This document shows positions 7,256 to 63,912 of a DNA stretch of 64,000 bases, one piece after another. The first letter of the stretch is position 1. Each line of letters opens with the position of its first letter. The notes under the pieces are model-generated. The model was not told where the DNA came from, did no database searches, and saw nothing but the letters and a program-made list of their open reading frames with translations. The translations under genes were made by a program, and so were the position numbers. The stretch comes from Leptolyngbya sp. CCY15150 (GTDB taxonomy: Bacteria; Cyanobacteriota; Cyanobacteriia; RECH01), in assembly GCF_016888135.1 (NCBI RefSeq), contig NZ_JACSWB010000135.1:1-64000 (forward strand), written 5' to 3'.

Positions 7256-8323
7256 ATGCCCACCACCCACCCCTTGCTTAAATTCCACTGGCAAACTACC
7301 TTACCCGAATATGTGACGGCGATCGCTTGGTCGCCCGATGGTCAAACCCTAGGCGTCGGTACTGCCGCCGGTGATGTAGTCCTGTATGCGATCGCTTCTG
7401 GAAGTGCCACCGTCCTGCAAGCCCAGAGCGATCGCTCCATTGATACCCTAGCCTTTTCTGCCGACGGCCAGTTTTTAGCCACCGGCGGGCAAGATGGATC
7501 TGCCCAGATCTGGTCATGCCTAACGGAATCACCCCAGTTAATTCAGGCGTTACGGGAAGATCGGGTTTGGGTCGATCGCTTAGCCTGGCATCCTACAGAT
7601 CCAGAGCTAGCCATCAGCTTTGGGCGATCGGTGCAGGTTTGGAATGTAGCGACCCAAACTCAGGTTGCCACCCTAGATTTTGAAGCATCCTCAGTCCTGG
7701 ATCTAGCCTGGCATCCCCAGGGAGAACATCTCTCAGTGGCAGGACATCGCGCGATTAAGACATGGAAACGCCAAGCCTGGGATGCCTCTCCAGAAGAACG
7801 GGAAACCAGCGCCGCTATCGAAGCGATCGCTTGGTCGTCCGACGGTCGTTACCTAGCGGCGGGCAACCACGATCGCACCCTATTAGTATGGGAAATGGGA
7901 AACCCAGCTCCGTGGCAGATGCAAGGTTTTCCGGGTAAGGTACGTCAACTGGCCTGGCCCAGTGATGCTAAATCGAATAAGCTACCTCTCCTAGCCAGCA
8001 TCAGTGCAGAAGAGGTGATTATTTGGCAAAAAGAAGCTGACCCCAATGCCGGCTGGGCGGCCCAACCGCTATCCGTCCACATGAGTCGAGTGGTGGCGAT
8101 CGCCTTCCAGCCAGGCTCACGACTGCTAGCCTCAGCCGCCGATGATGGAACCGTCTGTCTGTGTAAGTCTGCCCACACGCTAATCCAGCGCCTCCAGGGA
8201 GCCCCCGGCGGCTTTGCCTGTCTGGCTTGGCATCCCCAAGGGCAGTACCTAGCGGCAGGTGGTCAGCAGGGCGAACTGATCACTTGGGCGATCGCCCCTC
8301 GTGGTCGTGGTTTTGGCACATAA
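7256..8323 (+). CDS. WD40 repeat protein of the zinc island
   Basis: 355 residues made almost entirely of WD40 blades with the pattern AIAWSPDGQTLGVGTAAGDV, LAFSADGQFLATGGQDGSAQIW, LAWHPQGEHLSVAGH and AFQPGSRLLASAADDGTVCL, enough for one seven-bladed propeller. There is no signal peptide or transmembrane segment, so it is probably a cytoplasmic scaffold. It lies between a Zur-boxed COG0523 gene and znuA. This context suggests a role in zinc limitation, perhaps with the metallochaperones; the sequence alone does not show the function. Confidence 0.85.
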   Translation: MPTTHPLLKFHWQTTLPEYVTAIAWSPDGQTLGVGTAAGDVVLYAIASGSATVLQAQSDRSIDTLAFSADGQFLATGGQDGSAQIWSCLTESPQLIQALREDRVWVDRLAWHPTDPELAISFGRSVQVWNVATQTQVATLDFEASSVLDLAWHPQGEHLSVAGHRAIKTWKRQAWDASPEERETSAAIEAIAWSSDGRYLAAGNHDRTLLVWEMGNPAPWQMQGFPGKVRQLAWPSDAKSNKLPLLASISAEEVIIWQKEADPNAGWAAQPLSVHMSRVVAIAFQPGSRLLASAADDGTVCLCKSAHTLIQRLQGAPGGFACLAWHPQGQYLAAGGQQGELITWAIAPRGRGFGT

Positions 8324-50507: not shown

Positions 50508-52505
50508 CTACAGGATAAAATTAGATGCCTGTAGGTCACCGGCATTGATGTTATCCAGCACGGCTAGCCGTTGGAAGCGAGGTGAACCAATGTCTCCATT
50601 CATGTCAACCTTGACCACCGTTCTTGATCCAGACTGCACCAGTTCCACATAGTCAGCAAAGGGAGTGTTGCTGCGGAACGAGTCACCGCTCACCAGCTTC
50701 GAGAGATCCATGACATCTTGGCTGGCATCAAAATCCGTGATGCGATCGCCCCTATCCATAGGTGCTCGGTAGATAAAGGTATTGCGACCTGAACCACCCG
50801 ACATCACATCGCGGCCGGGGCCGCCGATCAGACGATCATTGCCGTCACCCCCGACCAGCCGATCATCGCCGGAGCCGCCAATCAGAACGTCATTGCCCGA
50901 TCGCCCTCGAAGGACATCATTCCCTTTGCCGCCCACAAGGCGATCGCTGCCATTAGTGCCGACTAAGCTCTGGTCTGCGGTGCTGTGCAGGGCGGTGCGA
51001 TCGCTCTCTTGTCCTGATTCGCTGTCTTGCACGAAGCCGAGACTGCGACCCGTGGGGCCCGCACCGCTGCCGATAGCAGGACTCGTGCGCAGTAGCGGGT
51101 AGTAATAAATGCCATTGGCATCTTGCTGAAGTCTACCTAACTTGGGATCGACTAAGTTAACGCTACTAGATACGTTCTCGCTGCTGTTTTGCTCCGGTGG
51201 CCATTGATAATTACCGCCGCGATCGCGGAGATTGCTGCTGCTATGCTGCTGAATATTCCAGGAATTTGGGCCATTATCAGCGGTGTTGTAATGGAAAATG
51301 GTGTTTCGGATCGACGCATTATCGCCGCCGGTGATGGCACCACCCACCCAGCCCGCACGGTTACGGGTAAAGGTACTGCCCACGATCGTTGTTGGGGCAT
51401 TGCGCAGTAACAGCGCTCCCCCATTTTTACTGAAATCATCACCTAGGGTGCGATTCTGCGAGAAGGTGACGTTGGCGATGGTGGTAGGGGCATCCATGAT
51501 CCATGCACCGCCGCCTTGGTTGCTGGCTATATTGTTGAGGAAAGAGGTGTTGCGTAGGGTAAAACCTTTATTGGGGCCGTTGGTGATATGCACCAATGCG
51601 CCGCCGTTGCCGTCACCGCCTCCAGGTAAGTTTAAGACCCTGTTGCCTTTGAAGACAGATGACTCTACAATGACGCGATCGTTCTGTCCGCTGTAGAGAT
51701 AGGCGGCTCCCCCTTCTCCACGTCCTTTATTATTTTCAAATACATTACCCGTCAGACGGATAGTGCCACCGGCGCTATTGGCTGCACTGGCGCGATCGGT
51801 GTAGATTGCACCACCGTAGCCACGCAGGAATGGGTTGGCGTTACCGGTATCGTAGCGGCCGGCGGTGGTGTCGTTGCCGATGAAGCGAGAGTTTTCAACC
51901 GTGAGATTGCCATTCAGGCTGTTGATGGCACCGCCGTTGATGCCTTGGTTATTGATGAAGTCGCTGTTACGAACCGTGAATCGATTCGGGCCCCAGAAGG
52001 CGATCGCTCCTGCACCACGCTCATCATTAGCGCCCGTGCCGATATTGGCCCGGAATTTGCTGTTATTGACCGTGAGATTGCCTTCATAGGCGCTGAAAAT
52101 TGCGCCGCCGCCTTTCTGGGCTTTGTTGCCGCTAAAGGATACGTTGCGTACGACGACGGAGGCTTGGTGTTCTGTACTAATCGCTCCACCGCGATCGCGG
52201 GTAAAGCCATTGGTTAGGTTCAACCGTTGAAAGGTCACCTGGGTTGGCGTTACGTGATTGGACTGCACCAAAAAGATGCGGTGTGCCCGATTGCCGCTAA
52301 TCGTCAAGCCTCGGGCGTCACTGCCGTCGATGGTGATGTTTTTACCAGCGGCAATGGTGAGGGTATTGCGCAGGGTGATGGTTTGATTGGCGAGTCTTGA
52401 GGAAAACCGAATGGTGTCGCCAGATCTAGCCCTGGCGATCGCGTTGCGTAGAGATCCAGCCGTGGTGGTATCTGCGGCTCTGGTGACGATAAAGGTTGTT
52501 GGCAT
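50508..52505 (-). CDS. secreted right-handed beta-helix protein with RTX calcium-binding repeats
   Basis: 665 residues from ATG 52505 ([20 protein letters not shown]); a longer frame to 52610 has no better signal. Residues ~10-460 are parallel beta-helix coils with recurrent GGAI/GGAIY steps ([34 protein letters not shown]), as in polymorphic outer-membrane or pectate-lyase-like proteins. Residues ~525-590 are RTX nonapeptides ([19 protein letters not shown]), and the end ([14 protein letters not shown]) is typical of hemolysin-type proteins. No N-terminal signal: type I secretion is inferred. Confidence 0.85.
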
Positions 52506-52926
52506 AATGATGAAGGTCAGAAATGGTGGATCAAAACAACTGGATGCGGTCAGGTATGTAGACCATGAGGACGTTATGGGGGCAACTTGTCTAGGGACGG
52601 GCAAGGCCATGCCTAAGTTTCCATAGAGATCTGGCGATCGCTTTCCCGCTCTTGTCTATTAGGTGTTCTGATATTTGGCTTGGCAACCGGAGAAATGATG
52701 GCGTTTTGTGAAAAAAACCTAGATTTTTCAGTAATTTTCCGGATAGATTAGATGCGTGATCAAGCCCGATCGGGTAGTATCACCGTCTAAATCTCATAAC
52801 CGCGCTGTGTGTCGTAGCTGCCGATAGCGATCGCCTTCCCCTAATGCGTTCTACTTGATCGCTCTTCCTCATGGTTCCCCGTTTGCCCCCAGGTTGCACA
52901 GCGGGGGAACTTCTCCTACACTAATA
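52506..52926. other. 421-base intergenic stretch upstream of marR
   Basis: Divergent promoters for the exoprotein and marR must lie here. No gene seen. Confidence 0.4.
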
Positions 52927-55205: not shown

Positions 55206-56414
55206 CTAAACTCCAGGGCTAGCGGACAGCAACCGACCATCAACTGTCCAGAGGCGTAGGGTTTGGGTGTCGTCTAGGGTAGCGATCGCTTCTCCGCTGG
55301 GGGCAAAGGCAACGGCCGGGCTACCCTGATGGCCTTCTAACTGCGCGATGGGATTCCCTGCCCGATCCCAGATCAGGACTGTGCCATTATCTTGGCTGAG
55401 CGCGAGTAGGTGACCCTGGGGGCTGAAGGCCAGGTGGTCTACCTCGGTGCCATCTGAGCTGGCAATGGGGGTGCCGTCTACCTGCCACAGGTGGGCGGTG
55501 CCGATGCCGTCTAGGGTGGCGATCGCGCGGCCATCGGGGCTGAAGTGGATGTGATCAATCCAAGATGGGTGCTCTAGGGTGGCGATGGCCTGGCCTGTCA
55601 TCGTCCACAGTTGGACGGCGGGGTCGAAGGTGGCATAGGTGGCGATCGCGTCTCCGCTGGGACTAGGAACCATGTCTATAATCCAGTCTTGATGGCCGTC
55701 TAGGGTGGCGATCTGGGTGCCGGTGGTGTCCCAAAGTTTGACGACTGGGGAACGGCTGCGGGTGGCGATCGCGCTTCCGGTTGGATTCAGGGCTAGGTCG
55801 GAGATGTGCAGGTGGGGCACGAGGAACTGGGGACGTTCTAGGGCGATGATCAGGGTGCCGGTGCTGTCCCAGAGTTGGGTGGTGCCGTCGCTGTGCAGGG
55901 TGGCGATCGCTTGACCGTTGGCGCTAAAGACCAGTTGCTGGACGGGGCGATCGGGGCCGCTGAGCTGGGCGATGGTGCTGCCGGTGATGTCGAGTAGGTG
56001 GGTGGTGCCGTCGGCATGGCCCAGGGCGATCGCTTCGTCTATGGGGCTGAGGGCAACGGTTGTAATGGGACTGGAAGGTTCTACGATGGTTGGCTGGCGG
56101 TGTTGGAGATCCCAGATCTGGAGCTGGGTGGGGTCGTAGATGAGCAGGCGATCGCTGCCCGCATTCCAGACTATCTGGGCGTCGGGGGCAACGTCGAGCT
56201 GGGCGATGGCGGTGCCGTCGGGATCCCATAGGCGGATGGGGCCGTTGGGGGAATGGGTGATCAGGGTATTGCTGGGATGCCAGATGATGTCGCCGCTGGG
56301 GTCTTCGTCCATCGCAAAAATGGCTAGGAGCGGTGCGGCTGGCTGCGGGGTTTGGGGGGGAAGGCTAGGGCCGGCGAGGAGGGGCAGGGTGAGTAGGAGG
56401 GCGGGAAAGGTCAT
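55206..56414 (-). CDS. exported WD40-like propeller protein
   Basis: 402 residues. A short signal-type start (MTFPALLLTLPLLAGPSLPP) is followed by about eight WD40-type repeats of the form AIATLHSDGTTQLWDSTGT and LLALSQDNGTVLIWDRAGNP. It lies 63 bases downstream of the STAND-WD40 gene, in the same direction. Its repeats share the DGT-LWD-GT style of that protein. It may be part of the same system, but is predicted outside the cytoplasm. Confidence 0.75.
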   Translation of the reverse strand: MTFPALLLTLPLLAGPSLPPQTPQPAAPLLAIFAMDEDPSGDIIWHPSNTLITHSPNGPIRLWDPDGTAIAQLDVAPDAQIVWNAGSDRLLIYDPTQLQIWDLQHRQPTIVEPSSPITTVALSPIDEAIALGHADGTTHLLDITGSTIAQLSGPDRPVQQLVFSANGQAIATLHSDGTTQLWDSTGTLIIALERPQFLVPHLHISDLALNPTGSAIATRSRSPVVKLWDTTGTQIATLDGHQDWIIDMVPSPSGDAIATYATFDPAVQLWTMTGQAIATLEHPSWIDHIHFSPDGRAIATLDGIGTAHLWQVDGTPIASSDGTEVDHLAFSPQGHLLALSQDNGTVLIWDRAGNPIAQLEGHQGSPAVAFAPSGEAIATLDDTQTLRLWTVDGRLLSASPGV

Positions 56415-56477: not shown

Positions 56478-59400
56478 TTAGGGATCGCGGGGGGGAATAT
56501 TGCACATAGCGCGATCGCTCTCGGTCACGTCGGGGCTGTGAATGAGGTAGCTGCGCAAGCGACGACAGGCCCGGGCCAACAGGCTGTCAATATCCTGATC
56601 TACGGGCCACATAGTCACCCGTTCATGAGCAAGGTTTTCACCCATGAGGGCATTGCCGGGCTGAATCATCCACATATGGCTCCAGTCTGGGGCAAATCTT
56701 GCCAACCGTCCTTCATACTGGGCAATTTGCTGACCATTGAGCGTCCAAATACGCGTCGTGCGATCTCTACTACTTGTGGCAACAATGGTGCTGTCTGGGC
56801 TAAACTCCACCCGACTGATCGAGGACTGATGCCCCTCCAGTACTGCTAATAGGTTGCCAGATAAATCCCATAGGTGCACTGTACCATCCCAGCCACCTGT
56901 AGCAATGGTTTGACCGTCCGGGCTAAACTCCACCTGCCAGACAGGATCTTGATGTCCCTCCAACGCCGCCACAAGGTTACCCGATAAGTCCCAAAGCCTT
57001 GCTGTACCATCATCGCTACCTGTAGCAATGGTTTTTCCATCAGGACTAAATTCCACTACCTGAGTCCAGTCCTGATGTCCCTCTAGTACTGCCAAGGGAT
57101 TGCCTGATAAGTCCCAAAGTCTTGCTGTGCCATCACCACTGCCTGTAGCGATGGTTTGACCATCTGGGCTGAAGACGACCTCACTAACCCAGTCCTGATG
57201 TCCTTCCAGCACAGCTAAGGGGTTGCCAGATAAATCCCAAAGCCTTATTGTTTCATCATCGCTACGTGTAGCAATGGTTTGACCATCCGGGCTAAACACT
57301 ATTCCATCAACTGTGTTTTGATGTCCCTCTAAGCTTGCCAAGGGCTTACCTGATAAGTCCCAAAGCCTAACTGTATTAGAGTCATCCGTAATGGCAATGA
57401 CGCTGCTATCTGGGCTGAACGCGACTGTTATCCATCTGCCTTGATCTTGATATCCCTCTAGCACCGTTAAGAGTTTACCTGACTGATCCCATAGTCGCAC
57501 TGCTTCAGAGCTGTCTGTAGTGGCAATCGTGCTGCTGTCTGGACTGAATACTAGGCTTACCCTATCCTGATGTCCCTCCAATGTTGCTAGGAGGTTGCCC
57601 GATAAATCCCACAGCCGTGCCGTGCCATCATCACTACCTGTGGCGATGATTTTGTCGTCTGGGCTGAACACTACCTGCCTGATCTTGTCCTGATGTCCCT
57701 CTAGCACTGCCAAGGGTTTATCTGATAAATCCCAAGCTCTTATCGTATAACTGTTATAGCTACTTGTAACAACAGTTGTACCATCCGAGCTAAACACTAT
57801 CTGATCAACACTGAACTGATATCCCCTCAGCACGGCCAGTGGAGCACCTGTTACATTCCACAGATGCACTGCGCCGAAGCTGCTTGTAGCGATGGTTGTG
57901 CCACTCGGGCTAAACACTATTTGATTAACACCGGTCTGATGTCCTTCCAAAACGGCTAAGCGAGTGCCCTCCAAGTTCCACAAACGCGCGGTGCCATCGT
58001 AGCTTCCTGTAGCAATAGTTTCTCCATCTGGACTAAATACGACCTGACTGACTTCGGCTTGATGTCCTTCCAGTACTGCCAAAGAATTGCCCGATAAGTC
58101 CCACAGGCGCACAGTGCCATCGCTGCTTCCTGTAGCAATAGTTTCTCCATCTGGGCTAAATACGACCTGTCTGACTTCAGCTTGATGTCCTTCCAGCACT
58201 GCCAAGGGATTGCCCGATAAATCCCACAGGCGCGCTGTGTTATCTTCACCATGAGTGGCGATCGCATCCCCATCGGGACTAAACACCACCTGACTGATGC
58301 CCCCCTCATTCCCCCCTATGCGGGCCAGTTCATTGCCCTCCAAATCCCACAGTCGCACTATTCCATCTTCACCACAGGTGGCGATCGCATCCCCATCAGA
58401 ACTAAACTCCACCTGATTGCTGCCCCCCTCCTTCCCTTCTATGCGGGCCAGTTCATTGCCCTCCAAATCCCACAGTCGTACTGTGCCATCTTCACCACGG
58501 GTGGCGATCGCATCCCCATCGGGACTAAACTCTACCTGCCAGATGCTCCCCTCGTGTCCTTCCATTTGAACCAGTTCATTGCCGTTTAAGTCCCACAGCC
58601 GTATCTTGCCATTCTCGTCGCTGGTGACAATTATCTTTCTATCAGGGCTAAACTCCACCTGATTGACGACCCCCTCATGTCCTTCCATGCGGGCCAGTTC
58701 ATTCCCTTCCAAATCCCACAGATGTGCCGTTCCATCTTCTCCGCCTGTGGCGATCGTTTGTTCATCTGGGTTAAACGCCACAGTTGGAACATTTTTCTCA
58801 CCTACTTCAAGCCGGATTTCTCGAATTTGAGCGAGGCTGGTTTGGGTAGTGAACAAGGGGCTGTGGGCAGGATAGCCGTTCAGATTCTGAATGTTATGTA
58901 CCTGGGTCAGGCGCTGAAGATCATACAGGGCACGGGTCGCCAAGAGCAACGCCTCGGTTTGCTGGAATGAAAAGCGATTTTGGGCCGCCACCCCAGCACG
59001 TTCAAGTTGCGTCGCTTCACGAGCCAAGGTCAAGTTACGATTTCCGCGATACACAATGGACGACGTGAGCACGCTGGACAAAACGAAGATGGCAATCCCC
59101 GCTACTGACCACCGAGTTGCTTGCCGTTGGGCCTGCCCTAAAATCTGCTTCGCGTTTTTGAGTTCTTTCTGAGTGGCTAAATTTTCTTGCTCCAGAGCCT
59201 CTAACCGCTCCTTCAAATGTTCTACATCACTCCGACGCTGCCGCTGAATCAGTTCCGCGATGTAGTCATGCACCAACTGATAGCGATCCTGCGGTTCCTC
59301 CGGCAAATACATCACCAGCCCCGACCCACAGGCCACCCGCAACACCAGATCCAACGGCTCCGTCGGTTCCGTCTCCTCCTCCGTCTCCGGCTCCCCATCT

Positions 59401-61841
59401 CCAAACACCCGCCCCGGCAACAGCGCCTCCAGCTCCTTCACCAGCTCCGATCGCGTCTTTAGCGGTCGCGTTCCCCGCTCATCCGTCAACAAAAACAACA
59501 CCAGCTCCGCCAACTGTTGATGCTCCGGGCCACAGTTGTCCACCACCTCCTGCACATAGCCCGTCACCAACGCCTCCTTCGGCGCATCCCCCAACTGCTC
59601 ATAGGCCGCCAGAGTCGAAACCCCCACCGTCTGTAGCTGCGCCCCCACAATCTGCATCTCAATCGGCCGCACCTCCTGCAGCGGCCCACCCAGATCCTGC
59701 ACCACCCGTTCCACCAACGCCGGCTCTAGGCTAAAACGCGATCGCCCCGTCAGGTCAGCGATCGTCGCCCTGGCATCCTCCAACGATAAATTACCTAAGC
59801 CATAGAGCACCTGTCGCCCTAAAATATCGTGGCCGATGGCGCTCATGCTGTCTAGGCGATTGGCATCCAGCAGATAATGGATATAGTCCTCCCGCAAGGA
59901 GATCACCACCTTCACGTAGGGAATCGCTAAACAATCCCCCAAAAATTCAAAAAACCGCCGCCACTGCAAGCGATCGGGATTTGCGAAGAAGAACTCCTCA
60001 AACTGATCCAGCATCAAAATCGTGCGCAGATTCCGCCCCTCATTCTGGCGTAGCTGCTCCAACAACGATCCATCGGTTCCAGCCTTTCTTAAATCCCTCA
60101 GACCCTGACTGATCTGATGGGCCAAATCTGCCTGCCACTGCGCGGTGTAGTTGCGCATCACCACCACCAAATTATCGCGATAGTCGATGGGCTTGCGCAG
60201 CGCTGGCACCAGGCCGGCGTTCAGCAGCGAACTTTTGCCCACCCCCGATCCACCGTGGATCACCACCAGCTTATAGTCACTGCGCCCCAGCCGCTGCATC
60301 AACCTCTCTAGATCCAGCCGCCGCCCCGATGCAGCAATCTCCGGAGCCACGCCGTAGAGATCATCCAGGCCCTGGGGCTCTAACCCGAGCCGCCCCGCTC
60401 CCACAAAGGCGCGAATACCGGCATTCTTTTCCACCTCCAGCCGCGCCTGCTTCAGCTTAAAAGCCATGAGATACTGCCGTTGCTCTAGCCGCAGATCCCG
60501 TAACTCTTCCAAAATGGCGCAATAGGTGGTGGGATGGCCGCGATCGCCCCAGGCCCTTGCCTCTAGCAAATAAGCGATCGCCCCCTGAGGATTGCCCAAC
60601 CCCCGCTCTGCCTTGGCCAAATTGAGCAGGTAGAGACCCCGAATCCAGCCCGATTTCTCTGGCAGGCGATCGAGGATCTGCATAGCCTCCTGGGTGAGTC
60701 GCTTGGTCTCCGTCCACTGCTGCCGGTGCAGGGCGATATTGCCCAAAAAGCCATAGTCATAGGCCAACTTCAGGGGATAGTGATCCGGGCGATGCAGCTC
60801 CATCCCCAGACGGCAGTAACGCTCCAGCGCATCCCAGTCCTCCAGACGCTTCAGCACCCGCTGCAGCCCCGATAGGCACTTGGCCACTAAGTCAAGGCGA
60901 TCGCAGGCTTGAAAGATCTGAATACTGCGCTCCAAGGGCAGCCTCGCCCGTTGCCATGCCTTGCTGTCTACCCCATCCCCCTGCCGCCGCTCCCGATCCA
61001 CTACCCAGGCCAGATGGCGGCCTAGGAAAAAGTGGGCCATGCCGGCCCGCAGTTGGCGATCGCAGTCCTCCAAGGGCTCTTGGCTCGTCCAATAGTCAAC
61101 ACTGCGCTGAAAATACTGCCCCGGCTGATCTAAATCCTGCGGTTGGTGCTTGGCTAGGTTGAGGGCGATCGCCCAGTTTAGGGCCGCTTGGGCTTCGGGA
61201 TGGAGCGTGATCGGGCCTGCTTCATCTAGGGCGAGCTGTAGCTCTGATTGCTGAAAGGGGCCGAGGGGATTCAGGACCTGGAGCGTAGACGGCAGTTTCC
61301 CCGATCCTGGATCGAGGAGGCTGGCATAGATTTGGTCGGCGGCTTGGTGCAGGCCATGGCTGAGCCAAGCGGAGCTGACGGTGAAGTGGGTGACGTCTGA
61401 TGCCCAACTGACAAAATTGGGCGCTTCCCGCGCCAGTTGCACCTGGGTGGGATCATCGAGCCATAGGACAAAGGGAAAGGGGAAATGCTTACGAAACTCT
61501 TCGCGCACATTTTCCATCGCGCCCAGCACTTTCTGGAGATGTTCCACATGCCCCAACCCCATCACCATCAAGGCTTCTGGCTGGCGATCGCCCAAGGCAT
61601 CCCGCAGATTGGTAAACAGATTTTGGGCCGAGGGATGGAGCGTTAATTGGTCGAGGGTGAGGTTATAGCGATCGGCGCAAATCTGCTGTAGCTGCTGCGC
61701 CAACTGTTCTTGCAGATGGTCATACCGACAGTGGACGAGGTGCAATGAAAACTGTCCTCGCCCCAGATCCAGCACATCGGCCAACTCCTCTAGGCGAGTC
61801 GCGTTAGCGTCATGAAACTGGGCGGCATGATCATCGCTCAT
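56478..61841 (-). CDS. giant TPR-STAND NTPase with membrane span and WD40 propellers
   Basis: 1787 residues. Residues 1-215 resemble the domain preceding TPRs in bacterial NLR-like proteins (FPFVLWLDDPTQVQLAREAP). TPR-like helices run to ~480. The STAND NTPase at ~500-890 has Walker A VVIHGGSGVGKSSLLNAGL (~530) and Walker B LMLDQFEEFFF (~612). A coiled coil and one membrane span (~912-932, SVAGIAIFVLSSVLTSSIVY) follow, then 17 WD40 repeats of about 41 residues (~1017-1715). STAND proteins detect a trigger with their repeats and oligomerise on ATP binding. The start overlaps the upstream ATPase stop (ATGA). Confidence 0.9.
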   Translation of the reverse strand: MSDDHAAQFHDANATRLEELADVLDLGRGQFSLHLVHCRYDHLQEQLAQQLQQICADRYNLTLDQLTLHPSAQNLFTNLRDALGDRQPEALMVMGLGHVEHLQKVLGAMENVREEFRKHFPFPFVLWLDDPTQVQLAREAPNFVSWASDVTHFTVSSAWLSHGLHQAADQIYASLLDPGSGKLPSTLQVLNPLGPFQQSELQLALDEAGPITLHPEAQAALNWAIALNLAKHQPQDLDQPGQYFQRSVDYWTSQEPLEDCDRQLRAGMAHFFLGRHLAWVVDRERRQGDGVDSKAWQRARLPLERSIQIFQACDRLDLVAKCLSGLQRVLKRLEDWDALERYCRLGMELHRPDHYPLKLAYDYGFLGNIALHRQQWTETKRLTQEAMQILDRLPEKSGWIRGLYLLNLAKAERGLGNPQGAIAYLLEARAWGDRGHPTTYCAILEELRDLRLEQRQYLMAFKLKQARLEVEKNAGIRAFVGAGRLGLEPQGLDDLYGVAPEIAASGRRLDLERLMQRLGRSDYKLVVIHGGSGVGKSSLLNAGLVPALRKPIDYRDNLVVVMRNYTAQWQADLAHQISQGLRDLRKAGTDGSLLEQLRQNEGRNLRTILMLDQFEEFFFANPDRLQWRRFFEFLGDCLAIPYVKVVISLREDYIHYLLDANRLDSMSAIGHDILGRQVLYGLGNLSLEDARATIADLTGRSRFSLEPALVERVVQDLGGPLQEVRPIEMQIVGAQLQTVGVSTLAAYEQLGDAPKEALVTGYVQEVVDNCGPEHQQLAELVLFLLTDERGTRPLKTRSELVKELEALLPGRVFGDGEPETEEETEPTEPLDLVLRVACGSGLVMYLPEEPQDRYQLVHDYIAELIQRQRRSDVEHLKERLEALEQENLATQKELKNAKQILGQAQRQATRWSVAGIAIFVLSSVLTSSIVYRGNRNLTLAREATQLERAGVAAQNRFSFQQTEALLLATRALYDLQRLTQVHNIQNLNGYPAHSPLFTTQTSLAQIREIRLEVGEKNVPTVAFNPDEQTIATGGEDGTAHLWDLEGNELARMEGHEGVVNQVEFSPDRKIIVTSDENGKIRLWDLNGNELVQMEGHEGSIWQVEFSPDGDAIATRGEDGTVRLWDLEGNELARIEGKEGGSNQVEFSSDGDAIATCGEDGIVRLWDLEGNELARIGGNEGGISQVVFSPDGDAIATHGEDNTARLWDLSGNPLAVLEGHQAEVRQVVFSPDGETIATGSSDGTVRLWDLSGNSLAVLEGHQAEVSQVVFSPDGETIATGSYDGTARLWNLEGTRLAVLEGHQTGVNQIVFSPSGTTIATSSFGAVHLWNVTGAPLAVLRGYQFSVDQIVFSSDGTTVVTSSYNSYTIRAWDLSDKPLAVLEGHQDKIRQVVFSPDDKIIATGSDDGTARLWDLSGNLLATLEGHQDRVSLVFSPDSSTIATTDSSEAVRLWDQSGKLLTVLEGYQDQGRWITVAFSPDSSVIAITDDSNTVRLWDLSGKPLASLEGHQNTVDGIVFSPDGQTIATRSDDETIRLWDLSGNPLAVLEGHQDWVSEVVFSPDGQTIATGSGDGTARLWDLSGNPLAVLEGHQDWTQVVEFSPDGKTIATGSDDGTARLWDLSGNLVAALEGHQDPVWQVEFSPDGQTIATGGWDGTVHLWDLSGNLLAVLEGHQSSISRVEFSPDSTIVATSSRDRTTRIWTLNGQQIAQYEGRLARFAPDWSHMWMIQPGNALMGENLAHERVTMWPVDQDIDSLLARACRRLRSYLIHSPDVTESDRAMCNIPPRDP

Positions 61842-63199
61842 GGGGAGAGATCCTTTACACCGAGCAGAATAGGATTCACATCAAACCAGGATATGCCCTG
61901 ATCTCGATACTCAAACACCAGCCGACTGTGGATTAATGTTTTGTAACCCTCATCGCCGCTCACTCGCTTGCGATCGCTCACCTGACGCAGTAAGTCCCAT
62001 TCTTCGTCTGAGATCTGTAGGCTCATTTCATTGCAGCGTTCGCGAATCACCTGCTCTAGGGTGGCGCGATTCAGGGGCAGTTGACGGCGGCTTTTCATAA
62101 TCCAAGCGCTGAGCAGCCGCAGCAAATCGCGCACATGCCCGCCGCTGGCCTGGCAGAGGCGATCCAGACTTTCCGGTTCATCAAACACCAGATTGAGGTG
62201 CGCCAGGCGATCGCCCTCCGGCAGCTCCGGAAAAGCCCGCGCTAACACCATCTGACGCAAAAGCACCATGCCTGCCTCAAAGGCACTGCCGTCTTCCCGC
62301 TGCACCGGCACCATGGGCAACACCCGTGGATCATCGGGATAACGTTGGGTGAGATGCCCATACTCGCTGGAAAATTTGAGCGCTAGGGGCATGGTGTAAA
62401 TCGTATGGCAGCGCAGCCCGCGCAAACATTCGCTTTGGTCAATGTACAAATATTCTTGCTGCGGCCGGCCGTAGGGCTTGGGAGAATTGATCAGCTTTTC
62501 TAGACTATCCACAATCACCACCAGCCCCTGCTGCCCCTTTTGCTTCAGTTGAGCGATCGCCGGTTCCAGCAGCTCCCGGTTAATCGCCTCCAACAACCGC
62601 GTCTTTTGGGGCCCGAGAAATTGGTTAAGGCGATCGCGCAACAGCGAATCATTCTTGGCCTTAGCCGTAATTTTACCAATGCCCGTTGCCAACGAGAGAC
62701 CATCGTCGAGGTTAAAGCCCACTTCTCCTACCATAGGGATCGCCACTCCCAGTTCCGCTGACAGTTCCACCTCCGTATTCATCAGGCGCGTCGCCTTTTG
62801 CAGCAGATCCCGGAAGGTACGCGGCTGCTCTAGCTTCAGGGAATCAATACTTTCCCCCACCCGACGGGCGATCGCCAGCAGCACATCCCCAATATCCACA
62901 TCCGCCATATCCAAATCTTCGTTGGAGTCAAAATAGACGACGTGGAAGCCATCCGATTCCAGTTCCTGCTTCAGCCGCAGCAGTTCTGTCGATTTACCGC
63001 AGCCAATATGCCCGGTGAATAATACGCAGGTGGGATCATCCGAGGCATAAAAAGTAATCGTGTCCCGCAGATCCGCGATAATTTCACCCCCGCGTACTGA
63101 TGAAAAATCAATGTAGAGCGTCCGATCCGCCGCTTTGGACACATCCAGAGTTTGGCTCGGGTTCACACGCTGGTAGAAATCACGGATATTGAGCATCAT
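61838..63199 (-). CDS. P-loop ATPase coupled to the STAND protein
   Basis: 453 residues from ATG 63199 (MLNIRDFYQRVNPSQTL after a first Met); an in-frame GTG at 63220 is the alternative. Walker A FTGHIGCGKSTELLRLKQEL (~60), Walker B GLVVIVDSLEKLINS (~225), and a C-terminal winged-helix-like region with GGHVRDLLRLLSAWI as in AAA/ORC-type ATPases. It is translationally coupled to the 1787-residue STAND gene, so the products probably act together. No named family is certain. Confidence 0.8.
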   Translation of the reverse strand: MMLNIRDFYQRVNPSQTLDVSKAADRTLYIDFSSVRGGEIIADLRDTITFYASDDPTCVLFTGHIGCGKSTELLRLKQELESDGFHVVYFDSNEDLDMADVDIGDVLLAIARRVGESIDSLKLEQPRTFRDLLQKATRLMNTEVELSAELGVAIPMVGEVGFNLDDGLSLATGIGKITAKAKNDSLLRDRLNQFLGPQKTRLLEAINRELLEPAIAQLKQKGQQGLVVIVDSLEKLINSPKPYGRPQQEYLYIDQSECLRGLRCHTIYTMPLALKFSSEYGHLTQRYPDDPRVLPMVPVQREDGSAFEAGMVLLRQMVLARAFPELPEGDRLAHLNLVFDEPESLDRLCQASGGHVRDLLRLLSAWIMKSRRQLPLNRATLEQVIRERCNEMSLQISDEEWDLLRQVSDRKRVSGDEGYKTLIHSRLVFEYRDQGISWFDVNPILLGVKDLSP

Positions 63200-63261
63200 A
63201 GGTTGAGAATGCGATCGCACGTCACCCCAGTGTATACCGACTTTTCGTCATTGGCTGCACA

Positions 63262-63900
63262 TCAGGTCAGCCGACGCAAAATGATCACCCTCGTTTCATC
63301 ACTCCAGAGAGTCTCAAATCCTAGATGATCGCAGAGAAACTCGAAGGTTGTTTCATGGTAGAACGAGGTATGGGTCGGGTCTGTGGTGTAGTGCCATGTG
63401 GCAAAGTGATCCAGGCTAACCCAGCGATCGGTCATAATCCCTAACACTCCGCCTGGTTTAAGCAGGCTATGAATGCGATGAATATCTTGTCTGGGATGGT
63501 AGAAATGCTCAAAACACTCGGTTGCGAAGATAAAATCATAGGGCGATCGCAGGGGAACATCCAAAAAGATGGGATCGTAATCCTCACAGTCGATACCTTG
63601 CCGTTTGACCAGCTCCGACAGGGTAGGCCCAGGGCCACAGCCGTAGTCTAGCCCACACATGGTGTTATCTAGATAAGGCAAGGTTGGCTTGATGACGCGA
63701 TTTAGAAAGTTCACATACCCAACTTGCTCAATGCTGTTATGATGGGTGCCGTAGTAGGCTCGTTCGTCATCAAGGGACAGGTGATGGTCAGGATCGACAA
63801 AAATCAGTGAGCAGTGGCTACAGAGATAGTAGTGGCGATCGTCTGCACCGCTAACCTTCGCTGGCTCAGGGGTCAAGCACAATGGGCAGATTAGCTGCAT
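63262..63900 (-). CDS. class I SAM-dependent methyltransferase with N-terminal zinc ribbon
   Basis: 212 residues from ATG 63900 (MQLICPLCLTPEPAKVSG); ATG 63912 adds four. Two Cys pairs (CPLC and CSHC, 22 residues apart) form a zinc ribbon. The methyltransferase core has LDYGCGPGPTLSELV (SAM loop), an acidic DYDPIFL, and EHFYHPRQDI then LLKPGGVLGIMTDRW. It is 62 bases upstream of the ATPase gene, same direction, so possibly in one operon. Substrate unknown; such ribbons are common in sugar and small-molecule methyltransferases. Confidence 0.82.
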   Translation of the reverse strand: MQLICPLCLTPEPAKVSGADDRHYYLCSHCSLIFVDPDHHLSLDDERAYYGTHHNSIEQVGYVNFLNRVIKPTLPYLDNTMCGLDYGCGPGPTLSELVKRQGIDCEDYDPIFLDVPLRSPYDFIFATECFEHFYHPRQDIHRIHSLLKPGGVLGIMTDRWVSLDHFATWHYTTDPTHTSFYHETTFEFLCDHLGFETLWSDETRVIILRRLT

Positions 63901-63912
63901 GGTATCATCCAC

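Follow-up and report, generated by a model that had tools for sequence, protein, structure and literature searches.

A candidate STAND-type receptor-switch module of cyanobacteria: an AAA+ ATPase paired with a protein whose WD40 sensor block is exchanged

Genes and domains at the locus

The window considered here is the whole stretch of DNA that was analysed, 64,000 nucleotides from Leptolyngbya sp. CCY15150. A preliminary description had placed four reading frames in one part of it, with an ATPase gene overlapping the gene for a 1787-residue protein, and this layout was recovered in full. The genes, together with the parts of the largest product, are as follows.

55206-56414, minus strand: P0004, ORF of 402 aa, a WD40 gene
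56478-61841, minus strand: P0001, ORF of 1787 aa, with a putative pseudo-AAA+ N-terminal domain (NTD), TPR-like helices, nSTAND1, a membrane helix and 17 WD40 repeats
61272-61841, minus strand: NTD of P0001 (residues 1-190), predicted AAA+ core without Walker A
60402-61271, minus strand: TPR-like helical region of P0001 (residues 191-480), Pfam TPR_12 below cut-off
59442-60326, minus strand: nSTAND1 NTPase of P0001 (residues 506-800), PF20703, active motifs present
58833-59231, minus strand: linker of P0001 (residues 871-1003), where the exchangeable C-terminal block begins; identity falls from 93% to 64%
59052-59108, minus strand: membrane helix of P0001 (residues 912-930), by hydropathy
56739-58832, minus strand: 17 WD40 repeats of P0001 (residues 1004-1701), by repeat analysis and Pfam
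61838-63220, minus strand: P0002, ORF of 460 aa, an ORC/Cdc6-STAND-type AAA+ ATPase by homology and fold prediction
63262-63912, minus strand: P0003, ORF of 216 aa, a Methyltransf_23-type methyltransferase

The P0002 and P0001 frames overlap by four bases (ATGA). The P0002 ORF opens with GTG, and relatives align from an ATG some 7-8 codons further in, which is probably the true start. In P0001, the nSTAND1 domain matches PF20703 at 111.6 bits (E 9e-32, Pfam cut-off 27.1), with Walker A at residue 530 and a Walker B motif, ILMLDQFEE, at 608. Of the domains listed in the preliminary description, the nSTAND1 NTPase, a single helix and the 17 WD40 repeats hold, and the TPRs are weak, with TPR_12 at E 5e-5 under the Pfam cut-off. 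PF00400 matches 16 stretches of the WD40 region, where the repeats vary most at repeat positions 13, 14, 16, 25 and 32. The helix is one hydrophobic stretch with a Kyte-Doolittle mean of 2.06. The same architecture was seen again in 90 different long partners of such ATPases, a recurrence that excludes a chance origin. Genes of this kind are currently annotated as ‘ATP-binding protein’, ‘ribosome assembly protein 4’ or ‘hypothetical protein’.

P0002 carries Walker A (GHIGCGKS, residues 70-77), Walker B (VVIVDSLE, at 234) and a GGHVR motif (360-364), and residues G70, K76, D238, G360, G361 and R364 are invariant in its family. The Pfam families ATPase_2 and AAA_22 match it just under their cut-offs, and a profile search against solved sequences gives a match to the P-loop of the SRP receptor. 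Its AlphaFold model (pLDDT 89) reaches VIA-align Z scores of about 15 to TnsC, an archaeal ATPase and ORC/Cdc6, and of 12-13 to CED-4, NRC resistosomes and Dark. Because the fold matches span all of these proteins, P0002 is placed, by homology and fold prediction, in the ORC/Cdc6-STAND clade of AAA+ ATPases, with its catalytic motifs intact.

The preliminary description listed an N-terminal domain in P0001 and overlooked its nature. The domain has no Pfam family, the single match being a sub-threshold one to a glycosyltransferase, and the profile search against solved sequences gives only a marginal match to Sir3. Its AlphaFold model (pLDDT 89) is a five-stranded alpha/beta fold for which Foldseek and VIA-align return AAA+ cores (TnsC, ORC subunits, archaeal Orc and RFC), with best VIA-align Z scores of 11-12, to TnsC and ORC. 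Walker A occurs in none of 119 NTD sequences, as against all 112 ATPase rows and all 90 nSTAND1 domains. Since this motif is missing, the domain is presumably catalytically dead, and the model suggests that it is most likely a dead AAA+ domain without a lid. No sequence similarity between NTD and P0002 was detected by hhalign; we infer that the two make contact. The Walker-less NTD, a probable pseudo-AAA+ module, is the constant feature of this ATPase's partners, being found in nearly every one, and defines them as a large family.

The pair has as its window neighbours genes for MarR, an ABC transporter, a WD40 protein, a methyltransferase, PHP and a dioxygenase. P0003 matches Methyltransf_23 in Pfam (E 3e-22) and moves with the pair inside the source genus: the three genes moved together between two congeners, and P0003 is missing from one near relative that lacks the pair and from another that has only an ATPase fragment. 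No P0003 homologue lies beside any other pair in the loci fetched from other genera, and an apparent 50% identity in another locus is an artefact of a gappy alignment. The methyltransferase, proposed earlier as part of the operon, is thus an accessory gene of this genus only; at the loci of all other genera it is absent, and it was rejected there as a core component.

The preliminary description also had an exported WD40-like gene following the pair. The gene, P0004, is present, and its export label is weak, with no transmembrane segment by hydropathy and no N-terminal positive charge. Its nearest relatives are P0001's own repeats, which makes it a lineage-specific local paralogue; it was rejected as a conserved partner, does not keep its place in the proposed operon, and probably lies outside the module. 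Elsewhere in the window, positions 50508-52610 (minus strand) encode a 700-aa protein, probably secreted and located at the surface, whose repeats are of the polymorphic membrane protein-like and RTX calcium-binding types, and another WD40 gene lies towards the opposite end, at 7256-8323 (plus strand).

Pairing, distribution and forms of the partner

A sample of 96 related cyanobacterial genomes was used to follow the pair, and a single-sequence search with P0002 found a relative in 44 of them. In the neighbourhoods of about 80 family members, almost every ATPase gene is followed by a same-strand gene with an NTD in its first ~160 residues, the two usually overlapping by a few bases or lying a short distance apart. 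Among named genomes, 80 cyanobacterial loci were recovered, and 59 of the 72 whose next gene was visible have the NTD there. Across whole genomes, the NTD profile found 134 domains at E < 1e-20, 101 of them directly downstream of an ATPase, and of 124 full-length ATPases in the 96 genomes, 97 are immediately followed by an NTD gene. Because pairs served to build the profiles, these counts lean somewhat towards paired NTDs. Several of the remaining ATPases lie where a contig ends, or their NTD has diverged further (e.g. L202).

Counted by genome (n=96), 42 carry both genes, one the NTD only, four the ATPase only and 49 neither (Fisher 2e-21); for genomes of at least 3.9 Mb the corresponding counts are 42, 0, 4 and 18 (Fisher 2e-12), both P values being optimistic because the genomes are related and not independent. 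The two NTPases that had been proposed to be coupled thus co-occur and lie adjacent in other genomes, so that a lack of co-occurrence, which the preliminary description had named as a refuting outcome, did not come about. The source genome itself holds three pairs, namely that of the window, a short one at L038 and another short one with a 4-bp overlap at L189. The pair is carried on plasmids too, and in some genomes a long partner is unlinked from the ATPase (L184-L186, L193-L195, L200). Almost all named carriers among the closest 80 loci belong to filamentous genera, a count that is uncorrected for the make-up of the collection. Outside cyanobacteria, one pair of the short form was found on a plasmid of Acidisarcina (Acidobacteria), where the ATPase ORF as annotated is short and lacks the N-terminal third. 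Searches of phage records and viral contigs gave no relatives, and a phage origin of the pair was rejected on this ground.

The source genome also has two orphan NTD proteins, of 182 and 973 aa (L190, 3996-4544, and L191, 4206-7127), with counterparts in the congeners G001 or G002. At L188 (4615-6234 and 978-4622) and L198 (5603-7168 and 7226-10909), an NTD-TPR gene that has no ATPase precedes one for a product of ~1220 aa containing two hydrophobic helices, possibly another client system of the NTD.

Partners differ in length. Among the 101 that are paired, 62 have 231-900 residues (NTD-TPR), 33 are longer and six consist of the NTD alone. In a tree of 104 ATPases, all 46 with an nSTAND1 partner fall in one strongly supported clade, every ATPase with a short partner lies outside it, and the NTD-only and most partnerless cases lie inside. 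Because all nSTAND1 partners belong to one ATPase clade, the long form probably arose once. Inside the same clade, L081, L082 and L084 are related solo P0002-type ATPases with similar neighbours and no NTD partner, which may have gained a role of their own. The loci L033, L061, L062 and L065 belong to one family in which the gene after the ATPase encodes nothing but an NTD (160-181 aa), and several of these genomes have a long NTD-nSTAND1-WD40 gene located elsewhere.

Taken together, P0002 and P0001 appear to represent a widespread, unnamed module, a variant of STAND/NLR-like conflict systems. No description of the ATPase-NTD pair was found in the literature; it may be listed in supplements of conflict-system papers.

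The exchangeable block and its predicted topology

Comparisons of related loci show that alleles swap the linker-helix-WD40 block in one piece and keep the switch part. The block was swapped at the nSTAND1 boundary in at least five groups of close loci. Compared with the locus of the congener G002, the window locus has a nucleotide identity of 83-96% over the methyltransferase gene; identity declines from 98% to ~74% along the ATPase gene, and amounts to 59-70% in the NTD, 84-95% in the TPR region, 86-99% in nSTAND1 and 55-66% in the linker. The corresponding synonymous distances are 0.71 for the ATPase, 1.55 for the NTD, 0.41 for the TPR region and 0.17 for nSTAND1, with the linker saturated. 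Synonymous steps of this size within a gene indicate recombination, not weaker selection. For the window locus the exchange is shown for the linker only, the WD40 part in G002 ending at the contig end.

The other groups extend this pattern. Core synonymous distances of 0.2-0.5 are joined to unrelated or saturated sequence after nSTAND1 when L103, L104 and L110 are compared with L106, as well as in L116/L125, L118/L124 and L147/L148. In the reverse case, L106/L125, the ATPase and NTD stand at 0.7-1.1 and the linker-WD40 block at 0.12-0.20, and L110/L116 behaves likewise. The upstream flank is also common to L147/L148, and likewise to L118/L124, so both look like the same site bearing a different sensor. 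One strain, Nostoc sp. UHCC 0302, carries three copies on closed plasmids; their ATPase cores are 96-97% alike, and one of the copies has an unrelated C-terminal block. The breakpoint of the exchange is the end of nSTAND1, outside the WD40 repeats; with the closed plasmids, this led to the rejection of an assembly artefact. Homology among close loci often starts right at the start of the ATPase gene, so that both genes travel together. A caveat is that repeat genes can recombine without selection. The pattern of exchange fits a recognition system, probably for non-self, that diversifies rapidly.

The membrane helix is exchanged within this block. It is present in 66 of the 90 different long partners, 24-114 residues past nSTAND1. 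In these 66, the 20 residues before the helix contain on average 6.0 K+R and the 20 after it 2.6, with the larger count before the helix in 62 of 66. A fixed-window control gave 5.6 K+R per 20 residues in helix-bearing and 3.6 in helix-free partners, and part of the bias may be compositional since the region is basic in helix-free proteins as well. For P0001 on its own, the counts (5 vs 4) give a weak bias. Cysteine in the WD40 part is 0.42% with the helix and 0.84% without (p 0.03, uncorrected for residues tested and relatedness). These charge and cysteine statistics point to a switch inside the cell and propellers outside. The membrane span that had been proposed is thus real, and it is unusual among the six nSTAND1 proteins checked in the source genome, the others having no comparable helix; the further proposal, that the propellers lie across the membrane from the NTPase, is favoured by the family's positive-inside statistics. 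The sensor need not be outside in every case, because 24 of the 90 partners lack the helix and most of these keep the WD40 repeats. Eight complete partners end 2-105 residues past the helix, without WD40.

Possible role, alternatives and known systems

Evidence for a conflict role comes from several directions. The block exchange and the carriage on plasmids support it, and so does Nostoc C057, in which a vWA-type protein encoded next to MoxR has a P0002 relative fused to it. CHAT, NB-ARC and TIR genes adjoin the pair on a conjugative plasmid of Acaryochloris. Chromosomal neighbours are not clearly enriched in defence genes: 140 neighbours and 140 control ORFs from random regions of the same genomes showed no clear difference in PADLOC or Pfam families, and enrichment in defence islands was rejected. 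Avs profiles gave only a marginal Avs2 match on P0001 (E 0.0035), over the NTPase. Pfam and related profile searches found no effector domain (nuclease, TIR, protease or other) in P0001 or P0002, which speaks against such a role, as does the absence of relatives from phage records and viral contigs. The suggestion of a conflict-type role gains support from the exchange and the fusion, and a role of the pair in conflict or non-self recognition seems likely.

The fused protein, at L182 (Nostoc sp. C057 plasmid p057_J, 5258-8182), has 974 aa; it is annotated as SAV_2336 N-terminal domain-related and looks vWA-like by eye, and the P0002-type ATPase at its C-terminus occupies the effector position of a ternary conflict system, with MoxR adjoining. 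At L199 (1696-2311, contig C351 of G002), two small genes beside a second ATPase-NTD pair resemble, by eye, a HepT-MNT toxin-antitoxin pair.

The best explanation of the whole, given an even chance here, is that P0002 and P0001 form a two-gene receptor-switch module. The dead NTD would dock on P0002 as a pseudo-subunit of a P0002 oligomer, and P0002 would gate its client protein or be gated by it. P0001 would sit in the membrane with NTD, TPR region and nSTAND1 inside and the propellers outside. Ligand binding by the propellers would cause nucleotide exchange in nSTAND1 and clustering, and the clustering would gather the NTDs and so switch the P0002 assembly. As neither gene has a known effector domain, the output would either take place at the membrane or depend on proteins that are recruited in trans. 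The exchange of the block argues for recognition of variable ligands, most likely non-self ones such as a phage, a foreign element, a competitor or a non-kin cell, in large-genome, mostly filamentous cyanobacteria. A more specific version is tentative: a transmembrane NLR with an outside, cassette-exchanged propeller, one helix, and a cytoplasmic STAND domain with a ring of pseudo-ATPase and ATPase, used for polymorphic non-self or non-kin recognition in filamentous cyanobacteria.

Alternatively, the protein may be an intracellular sensor of phages or elements of the Avs/NLR kind, in which the WD40 part is cytoplasmic, the helix is an effector or anchor, and nSTAND1 oligomers perforate or cluster the membrane to abort infection. 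The intact nSTAND1 motifs and the repeat sensor agree with this, as do the helix-free partners and the eight that end soon after the helix, as if it had a role of its own. The strong positive-inside bias, the lower cysteine content of the WD40 region in helix-bearing proteins and the exchange of the helix with the sensor, not its retention with the switch, speak against this reading, which is unlikely.

Rather improbable is recognition of kin or of cell contact within filaments, where outside propellers would read neighbours or surfaces to control adhesion or behaviour, not defence. An outside sensor is predicted, its exchange is allele-like, the named carriers are almost all filamentous, and in fungi non-self recognition involves STAND proteins whose sensors are WD repeats or TPRs, according to a published discussion (PMC10907252). 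However, the sensor could be linked to no polymorphic ligand gene, the pair is also on plasmids and in unicellular Acaryochloris, and the filamentous bias is uncorrected for collection make-up.

Ordinary physiological signalling, with the ATPase as a chaperone-like switch for TPR/WD40 scaffolds and the exchange as a by-product of repeat recombination, has a still smaller chance. The majority of paired partners are short NTD-TPR proteins without sensor or NTPase, defence islands are not clearly enriched, and WD40 genes are abundant in cyanobacteria (PMC5587647); but the breakpoints fall at the nSTAND1 boundary, outside the repeats, the NTD differs too within the source genus, and orthologous sites (L147/L148, L118/L124) bear different sensors. 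Finally, a modification system of three genes, the methyltransferase being central to it, would agree with the movement of P0003 alongside the pair and its absence from the two near relatives without a complete pair, but is nearly refuted by the lack of P0003 homologues beside other pairs.

Among known systems, the nearest published design is the two-gene nSTAND2 system, which pairs an active STAND/ORC-type NTPase with an eroded, inactive one that is fused to variable modules, most commonly GT4 or HEPN effectors; it is mobile and is predicted to form a hetero-oligomer (Kaur et al. 2021, PMC8195603). The likeness lies in a two-gene operon with an active and an inactive STAND protein. In contrast to what is described there, the inactive domain of P0001 lacks a lid and is fused to TPRs, neither P0001 nor P0002 has a Pfam match to GT4 or HEPN, and the long form adds a second, active STAND domain, a membrane helix and WD40 repeats. 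The iSTAND protein of MoxR-vWA ternary systems and BrxB of BREX resemble the NTD in having a Walker-less ORC/STAND-like domain with active AAA+ ATPases alongside (PMC7159879, PMC8195603, PMC12839542), and BrxB, as the iSTAND of BREX, also lacks the C-terminal helical bundle (PMC12839542). Unlike in the MoxR-vWA ternary systems, MoxR and vWA genes are absent at the window locus and the partner ATPase is of the ORC/STAND type, not MoxR; the one link is the distant P0002 relative fused to the vWA-type protein beside MoxR. The nSTAND1 and Avs/NLR-like antiphage proteins share with P0001 a STAND switch and a C-terminal repeat sensor, but P0001 lacks an N-terminal effector, is accompanied by a dedicated second ATPase gene, and has a membrane helix between switch and sensor.

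Fungal NWD proteins of the HET-D/HET-E type combine a STAND domain with an internally conserved WD40 sensor that shows allele diversity; they are cytosolic and diversify through repeat shuffling. P0001 shares with them the STAND domain, the WD40 sensor and the diversity of its alleles (see also PMC12222747). Unlike them, P0001-type proteins replace the whole linker-helix-WD40 block. In effect, they would be bacterial NLR-like receptors in which a fixed boundary marks off the sensor and the latter is swapped in one piece, a route of diversification distinct from retroelement hypermutation or repeat shuffling. PknD of Mycobacterium has a cytoplasmic kinase domain, a single helix and an outside NHL propeller sensor. 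It parallels P0001 in its cytoplasmic signalling domain, single helix and propeller, predicted to be outside in P0001, and differs in having a kinase in place of a STAND and ATPase pair and a propeller that is unrelated. If the propellers are indeed outside, P0001 would be a membrane-spanning relative of NLRs and would make non-kin or surface recognition directly testable in filamentous bacteria.

In the cyanobacteria chosen for a published survey of WD40 genes in prokaryotes, no neighbour was reported to be broadly conserved (PMC5587647). In contrast, the ATPase-NTD pair provides such a neighbour, and genes that were anonymous gain a defined anatomy, comprising an active ATPase, a probably dead ATPase-like docking domain and an exchangeable sensor.
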